A stretch of DNA of 64,000 nt, from the NCBI RefSeq assembly GCF_000204415.1, contig NC_015416.1, forward strand, positions 124,001-188,000, given 5' to 3'. The stretch's first letter is position 1, and each line of letters opens with the position of its first letter. Origin of the DNA: Methanothrix soehngenii GP6. Lineage in GTDB: Archaea; Halobacteriota; Methanosarcinia; Methanotrichales; Methanotrichaceae. Positions 2 to 29,054 of the stretch are shown in pieces. Position numbers and translations under genes: made by a program. The notes under the pieces were generated by a model. It made no database searches and was not told where the DNA came from. It saw only the letters and a program-made list of their open reading frames with translations.

Positions 2-1141
2 CACGAGTCGGATATGGTTGCCAAGCCCGATCCAACCACCTTCCAGCTCATCCCCTGGAGGCAGCAGGAGAACGCCGTGGCCAGGATGTTCTGTGACATC
101 CAGAACCCCGATGGCACCCCGTATGAGGGCGACCCCAGAAATGTGCTCAAAAGGAACCTCAGCCGAATCAAAGATGACGGCTATAGCTTCCTGGTAGGCC
201 CGGAGCTGGAGTTCTTCTACTTCAAGGGAGAGAACAACACCGATGTCCTGGATAACGGCGGATATTTCGACCTGACCACGGCAGACAACGCTACCGACCT
301 GAGGAGGGACACCATTCTCGCCCTGGACTCCATGGGCATCGATGTGGAGTACAGCCACCACGAGGTCGCTCCCTCTCAGCATGAGATCGACCTTCGGTAC
401 AAGGATGCCCTCTCCATGGCGGACACGGTGATGACCTACAAGATCACCGTCAAGGAGATCGCCCGCAGATACGGCTATCATGCCAGCTTCATGCCCAAAC
501 CCATCTTCGGCCAGAACGGCAGCGGAATGCACGTCCACCAGTCTCTCTTCCAGGGCAAGAGGAATGTGATGTTCGATCCAGGCAACGAGTTCAATCTATC
601 CGATGAGGGCAGATACTATATCGCCGGCCTTCTCAGGCACGCTCCCGAGATCACTGCCGTCACCAACCAGTGGGTTAACTCCTACAAGAGGCTGGTCCCC
701 GGCTACGAGGCTCCCGTCTACATCGCCTGGGCAAGGAGGAACAGATCCTCTCTGGTCAGAGTGCCCATGTACAAGCCCGGAAAAGAGGCGGCCACGAGGG
801 TGGAGTATCGCAGCCCGGATCCGGCAGCCAATCCCTACCTGGCCTTCTCTGTCATGCTGGCCGCAGGGCTCGCCGGCATTGCCAACAAATACGATCTCCC
901 CTCGCCCCAGGAGCAGGACATATATCACATGACTGATGAACAGAGGGCGAAAGCAGGAATCACGTCCCTTCCCGGCAGCCTGAACGATGCCATCCACATC
1001 ACCGAGAAGAGCACCCTCGTCCGGGAGGCTTTAGGCGAGCACGTCTTCCGGGCCTTCATCGCCAACAAGAGGGCAGAGTGGGATGCCTACCGCATGAACG
1101 TCACCCAGTGGGAGCTTAACCGCTACCTTCCACTACTGTGA
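2..1141 (+). CDS. glnA: Glutamine synthetase, type I-alpha (5' end outside window)
   Basis: ATP-dependent synthesis of glutamine from glutamate and ammonia in the cytoplasm. The reading frame is open from base 2, before the first ATG at base 14, so the gene starts left of the window and about 60-70 N-terminal residues are missing. Visible family motifs are the glutamate/ATP-site segment NGSGMHVHQS, the GPELEFF metal-ligand strand and the NPYLAFSVMLAAGLAGI helix. The loop IYHMTDEQRAKAGITSLP is of the GSI-alpha kind and lacks the tyrosine adenylylation site of GSI-beta, so feedback control rather than adenylylation is expected. The glutamate synthase genes follow directly, completing a GS-GOGAT pathway. 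Confidence 0.96.
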   Translation, partial: HESDMVAKPDPTTFQLIPWRQQENAVARMFCDIQNPDGTPYEGDPRNVLKRNLSRIKDDGYSFLVGPELEFFYFKGENNTDVLDNGGYFDLTTADNATDLRRDTILALDSMGIDVEYSHHEVAPSQHEIDLRYKDALSMADTVMTYKITVKEIARRYGYHASFMPKPIFGQNGSGMHVHQSLFQGKRNVMFDPGNEFNLSDEGRYYIAGLLRHAPEITAVTNQWVNSYKRLVPGYEAPVYIAWARRNRSSLVRVPMYKPGKEAATRVEYRSPDPAANPYLAFSVMLAAGLAGIANKYDLPSPQEQDIYHMTDEQRAKAGITSLPGSLNDAIHITEKSTLVREALGEHVFRAFIANKRAEWDAYRMNVTQWELNRYLPLL

Positions 1142-1223
1142 GCATTCTGGGGACGAATCTGGCTGCTCGATTAAGCCCCGGGGAATCGTCTATAAGAGAT
1201 AGCAAGGTCGATGACTGGAGTTT

Positions 1224-2351
1224 TTGGTTGCTATGCCAAGGAACAGAAGAGAGCTTTACAATAAGGAGATCTGCGCTTGCTCCATCTTCGGGGCAATGAA
1301 CCGGGATGGTGAACGCTTCAACGCTGCCGGGGTCATGAAGGCCATAGCCAACATGCATGTGCGGGGCAACGGCCTGGGCGGGGGCTTTGCAGCCTACGGC
1401 ATATATCCGCAGTATCGAGACTACTATGCCTTCCATCTCATGTTCAACGGCAAAACCCTCCAGTCCCAGATATCGGCCAAAGCGGAATTCGAGCAATACC
1501 TCAACCAGAGGTTCGATGTGGTCCATGATGAGGAGATCCCTCACCGCCCTCAAACCCAGCTTCGAGATCCCCCCCTGATATGGCGCTACTTCGCCTCCCC
1601 AAAAAAAATGGGAGAGGACGCCAGCCTGTCAGACGACGAGTACGTGGTGAGAACGGTGATGCAGACCAACAGCAGAGCAGAGGACGCCTACATATTCTCC
1701 TCTGGAATGAATATGGGCTGCTTCAAGGGAGTGGGCTATCCTGAGGAGATCGGTGAGTACTTCATGCTCGACCAACTCTACTCTGCCTATGCCTGGACGG
1801 CTCATGGCCGGTTTCCTACCAACACCCAGGCCTGGTGGGGGGGAGCCCATCCCTTCAGCCTGCTGGATACGAGCGTGGTGCACAACGGCGAGATCTCCTC
1901 TTACGGCACCAATCGCTGGTACCTGGAGATGTACGGCTATGCCTGCACCCTTCAGACCGATACCGAGGTCATAGCCTATGCTGCAGACCTGCTCCTCAGA
2001 AGGCAGAGGATACCGATGGAGATCGTGGCCAAGATCCTGGCCCCGCCCATCTGGAATGCCATCGATACCATGAATGAAAAGGAGAAGAAACTCTTCACCA
2101 CACTGAGAATGGTCTATGGCCCCCTGCTTATGAACGGCCCCTTTGCCATCATCATCGGCCAGACAGGCAGGCTGATTGGCCTGACGGACAGAATCCGGCT
2201 CCGGCCGATAACAGCAGCCACCAGAGGGGAGATGTTCTATCTCTCCAGCGAAGAAGCGTCGATCAGACTTATCTCGCCGGAATTAGACTCCGTCTGGACG
2301 CCCAGCGGAGGAGAACCGGTAATATGCGAACTTAACAGCAGGAGGGTATAA
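1224..2351 (+). CDS. Glutamate synthase, amidotransferase (class II GATase) subunit
   Basis: Stand-alone glutaminase domain of an archaeal split glutamate synthase. It releases ammonia from glutamine for the synthase subunit encoded next. The expected N-terminal nucleophile appears as Cys19 in CSIFGAM, so a short propeptide must be removed if ATG 1224 is the start. Other class II motifs are HGRFPTNT, AHPF and HNGEIS, and TDTEV. At 375 residues it is one domain only; bacterial GltB fuses all three domains. The gene ends one base before the next ATG, so the genes are probably co-translated. The family usually has CGIFG or CGVVG at the nucleophile, so CSIFG is a mild variant. Confidence 0.93.
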   Translation: MVAMPRNRRELYNKEICACSIFGAMNRDGERFNAAGVMKAIANMHVRGNGLGGGFAAYGIYPQYRDYYAFHLMFNGKTLQSQISAKAEFEQYLNQRFDVVHDEEIPHRPQTQLRDPPLIWRYFASPKKMGEDASLSDDEYVVRTVMQTNSRAEDAYIFSSGMNMGCFKGVGYPEEIGEYFMLDQLYSAYAWTAHGRFPTNTQAWWGGAHPFSLLDTSVVHNGEISSYGTNRWYLEMYGYACTLQTDTEVIAYAADLLLRRQRIPMEIVAKILAPPIWNAIDTMNEKEKKLFTTLRMVYGPLLMNGPFAIIIGQTGRLIGLTDRIRLRPITAATRGEMFYLSSEEASIRLISPELDSVWTPSGGEPVICELNSRRV

Positions 2352-2352
2352 G

Positions 2353-3867
2353 ATGAAATCATTCGTCTTTCCCCAGTTTCAGATCATCAGAGACGAGGCA
2401 AAATGCGGCCAGTGCCGGGGTTGCGAGAGGCAGTGCGCATTTGGCACCCACACATACGATCCGGTCAGCGATCGATTGATATCAGACGACAACAAGTGCG
2501 TTGGCTGCCAGAGGTGCGCCATCTTCTGCCCCCGTGATGCCATAGTGGTCCGGCCAAATCCGTCATTCTACCGCCCGAACGCCTCCTGGTCTCGGGAGAA
2601 GCTGGAGGACGTTAAAAAGCAGGCTGAGACTGGCGGGGTGATACTGACAGGATGCGGCAACGACAAGCCCTTCAGGATCTACTGGGACCACATGGTGCTC
2701 AATGCCTCTCAGGTCACCAACCCCTCGATAGATCCTCTGCGGGAGCCGATGGAGCTGCGCACCTTTCTTGGTGCCAAGCCTGACCTGATGGATTTCAAGG
2801 TAAAGAACGAGGAAGTGGAGATTGCCACCCAGCTCTCACCCAATCTGATGGTGGAAATGCCGATCGTCTTCTCCGCCATGTCCTTCGGAGCAATCAGCTA
2901 CAATGCCTTCCTCTCCCTGGCCACAGCGGCCAGCAAATTGGGGACCTACTTCAATACCGGCGAGGGGGGGCTTCCCAGGGAGATGAGAGAGAAATTCGGC
3001 AAGCATGCCATCGTACAGGTAGCCTCCGGTCGTTTCGGCATAGATGCCGAATACCTCAACTGCGCCGCTGCGGTGGAGATCAAGGTAGGCCAGGGGGCTA
3101 AACCTGGAATAGGCGGTCACTTGCCCGGAGAGAAGGTCTCTGTTTCCGTCTCCGCCACCCGGATGATCCCAGTGGGCACAGACGCCATCTCCCCGGCGCC
3201 GCATCATGATATCTACTCCATCGAGGATCTGTCCATGCTCATCCACGCCATCAAAGAGGCTACAAACTACGAGAAGCCGGTATCGGTCAAGATCGCAGCT
3301 GTGCATAACTTCGCCGCCATAGCAGCGGGGATCGTTCATGCTGGCGCGGACATCATTGCCATCGATGGCCTGCGGGGGGGCACCGGAGCTGCTCCCAAGG
3401 TGATCAGGGACAATGTGGGAATACCCATTGAGCTGGCCATATCCTCTCTGGACCGACGCCTCCGCCAGGATGGCATCAGGAACAGGTGCTCGATCATCGC
3501 CGCTGGCGGAATTCGCTGCAGCGCAGATGTGATAAAAGCCATAGCCCTGGGTGCAGATGCCACCTATATCGGCTCGGCAGCTCTCATTGCCATGGGCTGC
3601 AATCTCTGCCAGAAATGCTACACCGGCAAATGCAACTGGGGAATCTGTACCCAGGACCCGCGTCTAGCAGGGCGGCTGAATGTGGATATCGCCTCCCAGC
3701 GGCTGGTTAACCTCATATCTGCCTGGTCTCATGAGATTCAGGAGATGCTGGGGGGAATGGGGATCAATGCCCTGGAGAGCCTGCGCGGAAACCGTGACCA
3801 TCTGCGGGGCGTGGGTTTATATGAATGGGAGCTGGATGTCCTGGGAATAAAGGGTGCGGGAGAATGA
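2353..3867 (+). CDS. gltB: Glutamate synthase, FMN-binding synthase subunit with N-terminal ferredoxin domain
   Basis: Central catalytic subunit of archaeal glutamate synthase: makes glutamate from 2-oxoglutarate and ammonia on FMN. Residues 10-70 carry two 4Fe-4S motifs (CGQCRGCERQC and CVGCQRCAIFC) that can feed electrons to the flavin. From about residue 160 the (beta/alpha)8 synthase domain follows, with the GEGG, KPGIGG, HHDIYSIEDL and DGLRGGTGAAP motifs. The cysteine cluster near residues 416-434 (CNLCQKCYTGKCNWGIC) corresponds to the GltB iron-sulfur site. Its stop codon overlaps the next start (ATGA). No NADPH-binding small subunit is nearby, so ferredoxin or the Fe-S proteins just downstream are the likelier donors. 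Confidence 0.95.
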   Translation: MKSFVFPQFQIIRDEAKCGQCRGCERQCAFGTHTYDPVSDRLISDDNKCVGCQRCAIFCPRDAIVVRPNPSFYRPNASWSREKLEDVKKQAETGGVILTGCGNDKPFRIYWDHMVLNASQVTNPSIDPLREPMELRTFLGAKPDLMDFKVKNEEVEIATQLSPNLMVEMPIVFSAMSFGAISYNAFLSLATAASKLGTYFNTGEGGLPREMREKFGKHAIVQVASGRFGIDAEYLNCAAAVEIKVGQGAKPGIGGHLPGEKVSVSVSATRMIPVGTDAISPAPHHDIYSIEDLSMLIHAIKEATNYEKPVSVKIAAVHNFAAIAAGIVHAGADIIAIDGLRGGTGAAPKVIRDNVGIPIELAISSLDRRLRQDGIRNRCSIIAAGGIRCSADVIKAIALGADATYIGSAALIAMGCNLCQKCYTGKCNWGICTQDPRLAGRLNVDIASQRLVNLISAWSHEIQEMLGGMGINALESLRGNRDHLRGVGLYEWELDVLGIKGAGE

Positions 3868-4682
3868 TTCAGGATAATGAGATCTCCCTTATCCCAACAA
3901 ATACCATGGCTTCAGGAGGTTTGTTTTTGGGAGCGGTTGAGATCAATGCCGACGGGCTCCAGACCAGAGATTTGAACGACCGGCTGCGAGATCTGATGCT
4001 GGCCGGCAAGAGAAAAGTGATAATCAGAAATGTATGCGGCCAGCGATATATTGGCACCAGACTGTACTCGCCAGAGAGGCACCGGATGGAGATCGATATC
4101 TTCGGTACTCCTGGAAATGACCTGGCTGCCTTCCTCTTCGGTCATAGGCTGGTCGTGCATGGCAATGCTCAGGACGGGGTTGGAAACACCATGGATGATG
4201 GAGAGATTGTGATTGAGGGTAGAGCGGGAGATGTCTTGGGCTTTTCCATGCGTGGAGGGACGATCTATGTGCGGGACGGCTGCGGCTACAGGACCGCTCT
4301 GCATATGAAAGAGTACGAGGGCAAAAAGCCGGCTCTTGTCATAGGCGGGACGGCTCAGGATTTTCTGGGCGAGTACATGGCTGGAGGGACAGTCATCCTC
4401 CTGGATCTCAAAGGTCAGGGCCACAGGGCGAACTTCATAGGATCAGGTATGCATGGCGGGACCATATATCTGCGGGGCTCAGTGAACCGCTCGCAGGTGA
4501 GCGAACAGGTGGAGATCTCACCGATTGATGAAGCCGATCGGGGGATTTTAGACCAGTATGTGTCCGGTTTCATTGAAAAATTCCCTGATCTCGAACTGAT
4601 TCCTGAAGAGGTCCTGAAGGATGGTTTCGTCAAGCTCATCCCGAGATCAAAGAGGCCTTATAGCGATCTATATACCTATTGA
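3864..4682 (+). CDS. Glutamate synthase GXGXG-domain subunit
   Basis: Third piece of the split glutamate synthase, equal to the C-terminal right-handed beta-helix domain of bacterial GltB. The repeated G-x-x-G-x-x-x-G turns are visible (GAVEINADG, GNTMDDGEIVIEG, GDVLGFSMRGGTIYV, GSGMHGGTIYLRG). In the single-chain enzyme this domain is structural and positions the ammonia tunnel. I start it at ATG 3864, which overlaps the upstream stop as ATGA and has a purine-rich GGGTGCGGGAG stretch before it, giving 272 residues. The frame also opens upstream at 3825, but that would overlap the previous gene by over 40 bases. Confidence 0.92.
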   Translation: MIQDNEISLIPTNTMASGGLFLGAVEINADGLQTRDLNDRLRDLMLAGKRKVIIRNVCGQRYIGTRLYSPERHRMEIDIFGTPGNDLAAFLFGHRLVVHGNAQDGVGNTMDDGEIVIEGRAGDVLGFSMRGGTIYVRDGCGYRTALHMKEYEGKKPALVIGGTAQDFLGEYMAGGTVILLDLKGQGHRANFIGSGMHGGTIYLRGSVNRSQVSEQVEISPIDEADRGILDQYVSGFIEKFPDLELIPEEVLKDGFVKLIPRSKRPYSDLYTY

Positions 4683-23729: not shown

Positions 23730-23762
23730 TCGAATCGTCAATGTGGGAAGATCGCTTAAGCC

Positions 23763-24594
23763 ATTCAAGGAAACTATTTCAAGGGCAGAGGTCGATATGA
23801 CTCGTTCACCTATCCTCAGAAAGGGTTCAAGGTCGATTCTGGAAAGGATGTATCTTTCCAAGATCGGGGATATCAAGATCAAGCTCCACCGGCCCATTGA
23901 AGGCAAGATCAAACGGCTAACTGTTCGCTGGGCAGCAACTGGGAAATGGTATGCGTGTTTCTCAGTAGGCCAGGAAGATCTACCCAAACCGCCCTGGAAA
24001 GACGGCTCTCTGGTGGGCGTAGATGTCGGTTTAGAGTCCTTTGCCACCCTCTCCAATGGCGAGAAGATAGCTAATCCTCGATTCTTCCGAGAAGAAGAGC
24101 ACGAGTTAGCCAGAGTTCAAAGAATACTATCTAGAGCTCCTAAAGGCACGCCAGAGCGCAAGAAAGCCCTTGAGATTGTTGAGCGAGTCCATGAGCGAAT
24201 AGCAAATAAGCGATATGAATTTGCTCATCAGATCAGCAACCAGTTAGTCAATCGATATGGCCTAATCGCATTTGAAGATCTCAATATAAAAGGCATGATG
24301 CAAAACCACAACCTAGCCAAAAGCATTGGAGATGTGGCTTGGAATATGCTTGTGACTCTGACCTCGTACAAGGCTGCAAGTGCTGGTTCGATGGTAGTCC
24401 TGGTAGATCCAAGAAATACGTCAAAGATGTGTTCTAGGTGTGGCATTCTGGTTCAAAAAGATCTATCTGAGCGAGTCCATAATTGTACTCAATGCGGGCT
24501 TTCGATAGATGGAGACTGGAACGCGGCGATCAACATACACAGATTGGGACTACAATCTGTCGGTATTCAATCCGTCCAAGCCCGTCCCCTTTAG
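23763..24594 (+). pseudogene. tnpB: Decayed TnpB (IS1341/IS605 OrfB type)
   Basis: Relic of an RNA-guided TnpB nuclease gene. Compared with the intact copy at 43728-44828, about 100 N-terminal residues are missing. The match starts in frame 0 at about 23763 (NYFKGRGRYDSFTYPQKGFK) and shifts to frame 1 near 23850 (YLSKIGDIKIKLHRPIEG). The RuvC motifs GVDVG, FEDLNIK and the final DGDWNAA remain, as do the CSRCG/CTQCG zinc pairs. The gene is therefore broken at its 5' end and by a frameshift. It is directly followed by a right-end hairpin. Confidence 0.88.
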
Positions 24595-24837: not shown

Positions 24838-26307
24838 ATGCCAGATAAAAAAAAGGATAAGAAGCTGACCACAAATGTCGGTGCACCAGTGGCCGACAAC
24901 CAGAATGTATTGACTGCAGGACAACGCGGACCGATGCTTCTTCAGGATGTATGGTACCTGGAAAAGCTCGCCCATTTCGACCGGGAGGTAATTCCTGAGA
25001 GAAGGATGCATGCCAAGGGCTCAGGTGCCTATGGAACATTCACTGTTACCCATGACATAACCAGGTTTACCAGAGCTATGATCTTCTCGAAGATCGGCAA
25101 GAAGACCGATCTGTTTGCACGCTTTTCCACAGTAGCCGGTGAGAGGGGGGCAGCAGATGCCGAGAGAGACATCCGCGGCTTTGCCGTCAAGTTCTACACC
25201 GAGGAGGGCAACTGGGACCTGGTGGGAAATAACACCCCTGTCTTCTTCCTGAGAGATCCTCTCAAGTTCCCTGACCTGAACCACGCCATTAAGCGCGACC
25301 CGAAGACGGGCATGCGCAGCGCCAAGAACAACTGGGACTTCTGGACCTCTCTTCCTGAGGCTCTGCACCAGGTGACAATCACCATGAGCGATCGGGGTAT
25401 CCCTTACTCCTTCCGCCACATGCATGGATTTGGCAGCCATACCTTCAGCATGATCAATACCAAGAACGAGAGGGTCTGGGTGAAGTTCCACTGGGTAACC
25501 CAGCAGGGAATCAAGAACCTGACCGATGCCGAGGCGGAGGCGATCATAGCCAAGGATCGGGAGAGCCATCAACGCGATCTATTCGATAGCATTGAGAAGG
25601 GAGACTATCCTCGCTGGAAGCTGTTCATCCAGGTAATGCCCGAGAAGGAGGCACAGACCGTTCCCTATCACCCCTTCGACCTGACCAAGGTCTGGTACCA
25701 TGGAGACTATCCGCTTATCGAGGTGGGGGTAATGGAGCTCAACCGCAATCCAGAGAACTTCTTTGCCGAGGTAGAGCAGGCGGCATTCAATCCGGCCAAT
25801 ATAGTTCCCGGCATAGGCTTCTCTCCGGACAGGATGTTGCAGGGCAGGCTGTTCTCCTATGGCGATGCCCAGCGCTACCGCCTGGGTGTGAACCACCATC
25901 TGATTCCAGTCAACCGGGCCCGCTGTCCCACCAATATATACCACCGCGATGGGATGATGAGGGTGGATGACAATCAGGGATGCACCCTGGCTTATGAGCC
26001 CAACAGCTATGGAGAGTGGCAGGAGCAGCCGGAGTATCGTGAGCCGCCTTTAGAGCTGAAAGGAGAGGCATATCACTGGGATTTCCGGAAAGACGATGAC
26101 GATTACTACACCCAGCCCGGCAAGCTCTTCCGCCTGATGAAGCCGGAGCAGCAGCAGGCCTTGTTTGAGAACACCGCTCGCGCCATGGGAGATGCTCCTA
26201 AAATGATCAAGATCCGCCATATAGGCAATTGCTATAAGGCCGATCCAGCCTACGGCGAAGGCGTGGCCAGGGCTCTTGGCATATCCATGAGCGAGGTTCC
26301 CAAGTAG
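24838..26307 (+). CDS. kat: Heme catalase (monofunctional)
   Basis: Decomposes hydrogen peroxide to water and oxygen in the cytoplasm. The active-site motif [18 protein letters not shown] places the distal His at residue 58, the essential Asn lies in VGNNTPVFF near residue 131, and the heme-ligand Tyr is in [14 protein letters not shown] near residue 340. The 489-residue length fits small-subunit catalases. The ribosome site GGAG is eight to ten bases before the ATG. The rubrerythrin gene follows by less than 50 bases, so the pair forms an oxygen-defence operon. Catalases occur in some, not all, methanogens. Confidence 0.97.
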
Positions 26308-26354
26308 ATCGAATTGAATTAAAATTGATATCAAGATTAATCGGAGATGAGAGA

Positions 26355-26930
26355 TTGAAGAGTCTTAAAGGCACACAGACAGAGAAGAATTTGTTGCTCT
26401 CCTTTGCAGGAGAATCGCAGGCCAGGAACAGATACTCCTATTTTGGCTCCCAGGCCAAGAAGGAAGGCTACGAGCAGATTGCGGCAATATTCCTTGATAC
26501 GGCAGACAATGAGAAGGAGCACGCCAAGGTCTTCTTCAAGCTGCTGGAAGGAGGTGAGCTGGAGATTAACGGCTCATTCCCGGCTGGCGTGATCGGGGAT
26601 ACCAAGGCCAACCTTATGGAGGCGGCCGAGGGAGAGAAGTTCGAGAACACCAAGATGTATCCCCAGTTTGCCGCCACGGCAGACAAAGAGGGCTTCCCGG
26701 AGATAGCTGAGAAGTTCAGAAATGTCTGCAAGGTGGAAAAAGGCCATGAGGACAGATACCGGGCTCTGCTGAAGAATGTAGAAGAGGGCAAGGTCTTCAA
26801 GAAGGATACCAAAGTGGCCTGGAGATGCCGAAACTGCGGATACATCCATGAAGGCACCGAGGCTCCAGATGAGTGCCCGGCATGCGCTCATGAGCAGGCT
26901 TACTTCGAGCTGATGGCCAAGAACTATTGA
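26355..26930 (+). CDS. Rubrerythrin
   Basis: Di-iron peroxidase of anaerobes. The N-terminal ferritin-like domain carries the Glu/His ligands ([25 protein letters not shown] and [12 protein letters not shown]), and the C-terminal rubredoxin domain has CRNCGY and [14 protein letters not shown] start it at TTG 26355, where GGAGATGAGAGA gives a good ribosome site and the product begins [14 protein letters not shown], the family's usual start (191 residues). The ATG at 26325 would add ten unconserved residues. It is coupled to catalase. Confidence 0.95.
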
Positions 26931-27494: not shown

Positions 27495-28247
27495 CTAGAT
27501 CAGCATCCCAAAAGCTTCTCTTGGCTTATTCATTGCCATTAGGGCATGCATCTTGCTGATCTTGGCAGAAGAATAACCGGGATCGATCTCCAGGGCCTTA
27601 TCATACTCCTGCTGGGCCTCCACAAGCTTTCCATCTGCATGCAGGGCCAATCCCTTACCCAAATAAGCCTGCTTATAATTGGGGTCGACCACCAGTGCCT
27701 GATCGAAGAGAGCTTTGGCATCCTCATAATTGCCCAAGGCCATTTGGGTGATTCCCTTCAGGTATAGGGCCTCTTTGTAATTCGGATCCAGAGCAATGGC
27801 ACCATCGAATTTTGCCACTGATTCCTCATACATCCCCTGCAGCTGAAGCAGACGGCCCTCCCGATACCAGTAGTTTTTGCTTTGGTTATTCAGCTCTGTA
27901 GCCTTTGAGGCAGCGATGGTGGCATTGGAATAGCTCTTTACTGCCATATATGACTCCGCGATGCCCGACCAGGCAGCTGCATTGCTGCCGTCCAACTGCA
28001 GAGCGTTGTAATAAGACTGGATCGATACATTGTAGTCTTTCAGAATCCTCTCCGTATCCCCTTTATGGACCCAGGCATTTACGTAGTTTGGGTCCTGAGC
28101 CACTGCCTGATTGAAATAGGCGAGAGCATCAGTATAATTTTTCGCTGCGTAGAGCTGTGACCCCTTCCAGTCGAAGTATTCAGTCTCCTCCGCTGCGCAT
28201 ATGCCGATAAAAATAATTATACACATCAAAATGCCTAACAACTTCAT
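27495..28247 (-). CDS. Secreted or membrane-anchored TPR protein
   Basis: The start is ATG 28247, with GGAGGACAAAATC before it (the frame to 28319 adds 24 residues without a site). The product begins MKLLGILMCIIIFIGICAAEE, a signal peptide or single anchor. The rest is six to seven tetratricopeptide repeats with the usual W/Y-G-Y-A-P pattern (for example AYFNQAVAQDPNYVNAWVHK and ALFDQALVVDPNYKQAYLGK). Such proteins act as protein-binding scaffolds outside the membrane. The partner is not evident from neighbours. Confidence 0.88.
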   Translation of the reverse strand: MKLLGILMCIIIFIGICAAEETEYFDWKGSQLYAAKNYTDALAYFNQAVAQDPNYVNAWVHKGDTERILKDYNVSIQSYYNALQLDGSNAAAWSGIAESYMAVKSYSNATIAASKATELNNQSKNYWYREGRLLQLQGMYEESVAKFDGAIALDPNYKEALYLKGITQMALGNYEDAKALFDQALVVDPNYKQAYLGKGLALHADGKLVEAQQEYDKALEIDPGYSSAKISKMHALMAMNKPREAFGMLI

Positions 28248-28364: not shown

Positions 28365-29054
28365 CTATTCCTCCTCGCCGTCGATAAGATTGCGCAACAC
28401 CAGCTCCTTTTTGCAGGCTACGGCCACATCGTTGTTCTGCAGATAGATCATCTTGGGAGTCCATTGCAGGAGGACTGATGCATCCGATGCGAATATGATT
28501 CCTCCTTCCGCCACGCCGACAACGAGAGGCAGATCCTTTCTGAAAGCCACCAGCCTGCGGGCGTCCGGAGAGATCACCAGCAATGCATAGCAGCCCTGCA
28601 GCCTTTTGAATGCATCCATACAGGCAGCGATAAAGCTACGACCTGCCTTTAGGCCCTCTTCTATGAGATGGGCGATCACCTCTGAATCAGTGCTACTGGT
28701 GAAGATATGGCCCCGGGAGAGGAGCTCCTCTTTGAGCTCCTTATGGTTCTCAATTACGCCATTGTGAACAATGGCCACCCTGTTCTTGCAGTCTGTATGA
28801 GGGTGAGCGTTGGCCACGCATATATGCCCATGTGTGGCTCTTCTGGTATGGGCTATGCCGATGTTTCCCTCAAACTCCTTTAAAAGGTCATCAATAGCTC
28901 CATCCAGCTTCCCTACAGATTTTGCGATAAACAGCCGGTCAGATAAGGTAGCTAAGCCCAGAGAATCATAATCCATTGATTCCAGGTTCTTAAGTCCTTG
29001 GAGCAAGATGGGCTTTGCCTCTTCCTCTCCGATGTAACCAATGATCCCGACCAT
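28365..29054 (-). CDS. Stand-alone GlmS-like class II amidotransferase domain lacking the catalytic Cys
   Basis: The 229 residues match the N-terminal glutaminase half of glucosamine-6-phosphate synthase: MVGIIGYIGEEEAKPILLQG, then GIAHTRRATHG, NAHPHTDC, IVHNGVIENHKELKEEL, and TSSTDSEVIAHLIEEGL. The sugar-isomerase (SIS) domains are absent. The N-terminal nucleophile Cys1 (normally MCGIVGY) is Val (ATG GTC), and Trp of TRWATHG is Arg. It should therefore not hydrolyse glutamine by the usual mechanism. It may be a regulatory or structural partner of another enzyme, or a relic under weak selection; the frame is intact. Confidence 0.85.
   Translation of the reverse strand: MVGIIGYIGEEEAKPILLQGLKNLESMDYDSLGLATLSDRLFIAKSVGKLDGAIDDLLKEFEGNIGIAHTRRATHGHICVANAHPHTDCKNRVAIVHNGVIENHKELKEELLSRGHIFTSSTDSEVIAHLIEEGLKAGRSFIAACMDAFKRLQGCYALLVISPDARRLVAFRKDLPLVVGVAEGGIIFASDASVLLQWTPKMIYLQNNDVAVACKKELVLRNLIDGEEE

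Follow-up and report, generated by a model that had tools for sequence, protein, structure and literature searches.

Background

Vestigial class II amidotransferase domains that are naturally dead and have been kept by evolution occur in beta-lactam synthetase-type enzymes, where the dead domain forms part of the same protein as an active synthetase domain, whereas the domain described here stands alone. A search of the open-access literature returned nothing on this comparison.

The closest described enzyme is GlmS (TIGR01135), in which an N-terminal glutaminase domain with the nucleophile Cys1 is followed by two C-terminal SIS (synthase) domains. According to PMC7000685, Tyr32 and Arg33 of the human GFAT-1 R-loop bond to the C-loop of the synthase, E. 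coli Arg26, which corresponds to Arg33, is believed both to hold the Cys in the active position and to relay signals between the sites, and the ammonia channel is opened by rotation of Trp74 (see also PMC7948480 and the review PMC9272926). The domain analysed here resembles the GlmS glutaminase domain in sequence, predicted fold, and kept glutamine-site residues, but lacks the SIS domains as well as Cys1, Tyr25, Arg26, Gly27, and Trp74. Its direct parent group is an archaeal full-length GlmS, here named GlmS2, whose members are also followed by TPR genes in two related genomes (G038 and G016), as in the stretch of 64,000 nucleotides from Methanothrix soehngenii GP6 that we analysed (the window).

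Domain architecture

The frame at positions 28365–29054 of the window (minus strand) is open and encodes 229 amino acids, starting with ATG GTC (N-terminus MVGIIGYIG). An earlier note on this DNA had described it as a GlmS-like amidotransferase domain with Val at residue 2 and no SIS domains, a description borne out by our analysis. The protein matched NCBIfam TIGR01135 (GlmS) with an E-value of 2.6e-73 over profile positions 2–224 of 607, and its score of 247.5 bits lay below the curated cut-off of 418 bits for whole GlmS. Pfam GATase_6 scored 75.6 bits, above the gathering cut-off of 27, which places the protein among class II glutamine amidotransferase domains. The frame stops at residue 229, the two C-terminal SIS domains of GlmS are missing from the protein, and no SIS sequence was found 3' of the frame within the 64-kb window. 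The window genome (3,026,645 bases in two contigs, the larger of 3,008,626) encodes a separate intact GlmS, GlmS1, of 601 amino acids with Cys2.

Split amidotransferases exist in general, and the frame could in principle supply the glutaminase half of a split GlmS, with the SIS half at another locus. However, the only PF01380 matches above the cut-off in the window genome were the two SIS domains of GlmS1, which excludes a split GlmS there, and the second genome with the dead form (G024, below) likewise gave only the GlmS1 SIS pair, with a third weak hit in a 728-aa frame falling below the cut-off. Ammonia release by the dead domain is not to be expected anyway, and we consider a split enzyme extremely improbable.

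At positions 14–4682 of the window, a glutamine synthetase-like frame precedes a three-part archaeal-type glutamate synthase, with a class II amidotransferase-like frame of its own as the first part (named by sequence reading).

Parent group and distribution

Other than in the window genome itself, the best match among 50 family genomes was a syntenic, stand-alone frame of 250 amino acids in G024 (locus L005), with 67% identity. Like the window copy (V2, D28, and R72), it carries Val2 and has Gly27 replaced by Asp and Trp74 by Arg, so that the loss is common to the orthologues, as in a pseudoenzyme. Nothing was found to support a sequencing or assembly error at Val2, whereas the independent G024 genome has the same GTC codon together with the Asp27 and Arg74 changes; the chance of such an error is practically negligible. 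The earlier note had named this error, along with retention of Cys2 in orthologues, as what would overturn its reading, and neither occurred, the only stand-alone orthologue found having Val2. The alignment of orthologues that it proposed thus showed Cys2 to be lost in that orthologue, but not throughout the clade.

The next matches were full-length proteins with Cys2, namely those of G038 (L006, 67%) and G016 (L007), L008–L010, and L016, which form the GlmS2 group; unlike the dead form, these proteins have 590–606 amino acids, Cys2, and both SIS domains. In the tree, the window copy and the G024 orthologue were sisters (100/99) adjoining the GlmS2 of G038 (100/97). Both dead copies descend from full-length GlmS2, which is still intact in related genomes. 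Because the pair are sisters and have many derived residues in common, a single loss of the catalytic and coupling residues in the common ancestor of the window species and G024 would be the simplest reading. A one-event deletion of the SIS domains is less sure because the C-terminal ends of the two dead copies differ.

Of 26 same-genus genomes, two had the dead form (the window genome and G024) and two an intact full-length GlmS2 (G016 and G038); neither was seen in the other 22, many of which are incomplete. No further dead copy was present among the matches listed for 237 genomes of the class or for 392 genomes of the phylum (53 with a match at 1e-60), and none appeared in a scan of genome contigs, which found five bacterial GlmS loci. 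A scan of 80 of 105 viral loci showed Cys2 in 79 of the 80, the remaining match not covering residue 2, and the Trp motif was unresolved by pattern in 8 more loci. A plasmid search gave no match with at least 60% identity. The dead form is thus known from two species only.

Short frames in G077 and G089 were considered as further stand-alone domains and rejected, as they stop at contig ends and keep Cys. The phylum search also returned a 250-aa frame near a contig end in G385. A second GlmS2 copy on contig C4 of G010 (L047) looks disrupted, its C-terminal half aligning as two separate segments, and the same genome has an intact GlmS2 copy at C31. In two genomes of one genus, G050 (L083, G050:C1:162000-167000) and G051 (L069), a single in-frame TAG interrupts the GlmS frame at an identical position. 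Each of the two genomes has a pyrrolysyl-tRNA synthetase gene scoring above the cut-off, and therefore these GlmS proteins may contain pyrrolysine.

Residues lost and retained

The two dead copies were compared with 56 catalytic GlmS sequences, in which 39 columns are invariant (E. coli numbering). Both had lost the same five invariant columns, Cys1, Tyr25, Arg26, Gly27, and Trp74, and the window copy additionally showed I100V, a minor change at an invariant column. When five catalytic sequences were each left out in turn as a control, no invariant column was lost. In the window, the codon for the nucleophile is GTC (codon 2, Val; positions 29049–29051, minus strand), as in the G024 copy, against Cys in 56 of 56 comparators. 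The R-loop residues Tyr25-Arg26-Gly27 align with Ser26-Met27-Asp28 (28971–28979, minus strand), and the channel-gate Trp74 aligns with codon 72, AGA (Arg; 28839–28841, minus strand), the roles of both elements being those given in PMC7000685. The earlier statement that every other class II motif is intact does not hold, since YRG of LEYRGYDS has become SMD and Trp of HTRWATHG has become Arg, both invariant in the 56 catalytic sequences.

We read human Tyr32 as corresponding to E. coli Tyr25 from the YRGYDS motif. As judged from the alignment, the loss is patterned: the lost set comprises the nucleophile together with parts that link the domain to the absent synthase half, with Gly27 lying in the same R-loop. 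Because these five residues are lost and there are no SIS domains, glutamine hydrolysis and ammonia coupling are not expected. The domain would therefore be glutaminase-dead by every sequence criterion, as the earlier note proposed, with losses that extend beyond Cys2.

The invariant residues kept include Arg73, Thr76, His77, Asn98, Gly99, and Asp123, which we take to have individual roles in holding glutamine; in the window copy these are Arg71, Thr74, His75, Asn98, Gly99, and Asp123 (28686–28844, minus strand, by alignment). Setting aside the five joint losses leaves 34 invariant columns, and 33 of these were identical in the two copies; among the other columns the figure was 117 of 190 (Fisher p = 8e-6). 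The dead pair also had in common the derived changes P80I, S81C, S155C, A172F, and S176L, each found in 0 of 56 catalytic sequences, and therefore the site has probably been remodelled beyond a mere switch-off. The remodelled pocket may have lost glutamine binding. A salt bridge between G27D and W74R in the dead copies is a guess of ours.

Two cysteines, Cys79 (in the Q-loop region) and Cys155, have been gained in both dead copies and occur at these places in none of the 56 catalytic sequences, a pattern that would suit chemistry kept through a relocated nucleophile with the free N-terminal Val amine as the base. Arg26 and Trp74 are also lost, however, and Val is no nucleophile; we know of no Ntn amidotransferase that uses a relocated nucleophile of this kind, and we regard this as very unlikely.

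Predicted structure

An AlphaFold model built from a 48-sequence alignment had a mean pLDDT of 94.3, and its best match in the PDB (TM 0.93) was 1xff, a glutamate-bound GlmS glutaminase domain, which predicts an Ntn fold for the 229-aa protein; the model leans on catalytic relatives through its alignment and says nothing on pocket function. A single-sequence run was poor (pLDDT 38.5). The next PDB match was 3ooj, titled as the C1A mutant of E. coli GlmS with glucose-6P and glutamate. This is likewise a GlmS glutaminase site without its Cys, but it is engineered and full length and, going by the entry title, has only Cys1 changed. Because it crystallised with glutamate, it suggests that a missing Cys1 alone need not prevent ligand binding.

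Selection after the loss

Under a codon model (fixed tree, ten sequences, 221 codons), omega was 0.072 on the two tip branches after the common loss, against a background of 0.098, and omega = 1 on these branches was rejected (2dlnL 131), the purifying selection expected of a pseudoenzyme. On the stem branch, the omega estimate lay at its bound, and fixing it at 1 cost only 0.04 in 2dlnL. Pairwise Nei-Gojobori estimates for the dead pair gave a dN/dS of 0.109 with dS of 2.18 (near saturation); the value for the active glutaminase domain of GlmS1, compared between these two genomes, was 0.110. Amino-acid identity was 66.7% for the dead pair versus 81.7% for the GlmS1 glutaminase domain, in line with the larger dS of the former. 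Strong purifying selection has acted on the pair since the common loss, and the view that the stand-alone domain is conserved in frame is upheld in two species.

Truncation, the loss of catalytic residues, and the patchy occurrence in 2 of 26 same-genus genomes are also what a young pseudogene, drifting to loss after deletion of the SIS domains, would show. The frames are nevertheless open in two species near synonymous saturation, omega on their branches (0.07) is significantly below 1, and the dN/dS of the pair equals that of an active domain; there is very little probability that the frame is such a pseudogene.

Gene neighbourhood and candidate partners

A TPR gene (27495–28247, minus strand; likely start MKLLG at 28247) begins 117 bases past the glutaminase stop. 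Gene-order comparison showed that the order of GlmS2 (or the dead form) and TPR gene is kept in the window, G024, G038, and G016. In the last three, a second TPR gene and a HEAT-repeat gene then follow, and the neighbourhood also includes an epimerase gene and a small conserved protein, neither of which is nearby in the window. We considered the TPR protein as a partner and set it aside: the N-termini of the TPR proteins resemble signal peptides (read by eye), so that these proteins are probably exported, whereas the glutaminase domain shows no such feature, and a direct complex is therefore doubtful. The linkage more likely reflects ancestral gene order.

A conserved protein of about 120 amino acids with Cys motifs and no Pfam match (L040:10037-10423, minus strand) occurs near GlmS2 or the dead form in most loci; relatives lie near GlmS2 in L039, L041, L043, L044, L045, L046, and L048, and in the window genome elsewhere (G000:C1:1057136). 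Other window genes, named by sequence reading, include a catalase-like frame adjoining a rubrerythrin-like frame (24838–26930), an oxidative stress pair in a methanogen, and a seemingly shortened TnpB-like transposon frame (23743–24594) just after a UspA-like gene.

GlmS1 itself is another conceivable partner, since an intact copy accompanies the dead form in each of the two genomes: the domain could act in trans as a regulatory decoy, docking on the synthase half or on the glutaminase domain of GlmS1 and altering its activity. Regulation of GlmS in trans by another protein has a precedent in GlmR of B. subtilis (PMC7525490). Docking to GlmS1 is made less likely, however, because canonical interface residues are among those lost, namely the C-loop contacts (Tyr25 and Arg26) and the gate (Trp74), and the parent of the dead domain is GlmS2, not GlmS1. 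We hold this role to be unlikely.

Discussion

The frame is a pseudoenzyme derived from GlmS, with no prior description found in the open-access literature; our search there, which missed most subscription journals, returned nothing relevant on inactive, truncated, or stand-alone GlmS domains, and no expression evidence for the dead domain was found in the same literature. We conclude with high confidence that this stand-alone glutaminase domain is catalytically dead and yet maintained by selection. We favour, with less assurance, a domesticated pseudo-glutaminase kept as a ligand-binding or scaffold module; the dead domain probably now binds something and makes nothing.

In the scheme that we propose, full-length GlmS2 would have lost both SIS (synthase) domains, and the nucleophile Cys1, the Tyr-Arg-Gly of the R-loop, and the channel-gate Trp74 would have been lost in the common ancestor with G024. 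What remains would be a folded Ntn-type domain, which keeps its glutamine-site residues and is under purifying selection. Its remodelled pocket would bind an amino acid, with glutamine and glutamate as the leading candidates, or a different small ligand, in either case without turnover, and some partner that is not a GlmS synthase domain might sense the state of the Q-loop.

Glutamine sensing by the dead domain, suggested in the earlier note, is plausible given the site residues kept. Against glutamine binding, the dead domain lacks Trp74 and Arg26, two residues whose movement accompanies the loop closure that covers the bound ligand, and we put forward binding of glutamine or glutamate only tentatively; the remaining probability goes to another role as a scaffold or partner. 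A more specific and rather doubtful proposal is that the freed glutaminase domain, silenced coordinately at the nucleophile, R-loop, and channel gate, would serve the methanogen as a dedicated glutamine/glutamate receptor, signalling nitrogen status to a new partner.

Pseudoenzymes show how a catalytic fold is reused for signalling or scaffolding, and here one genus displays the intact parent, the dead daughter, and selection after the loss. The lost residues are known for chemistry and inter-domain coupling, and therefore a few binding assays could decide the question of whether a glutaminase has become a sensor.
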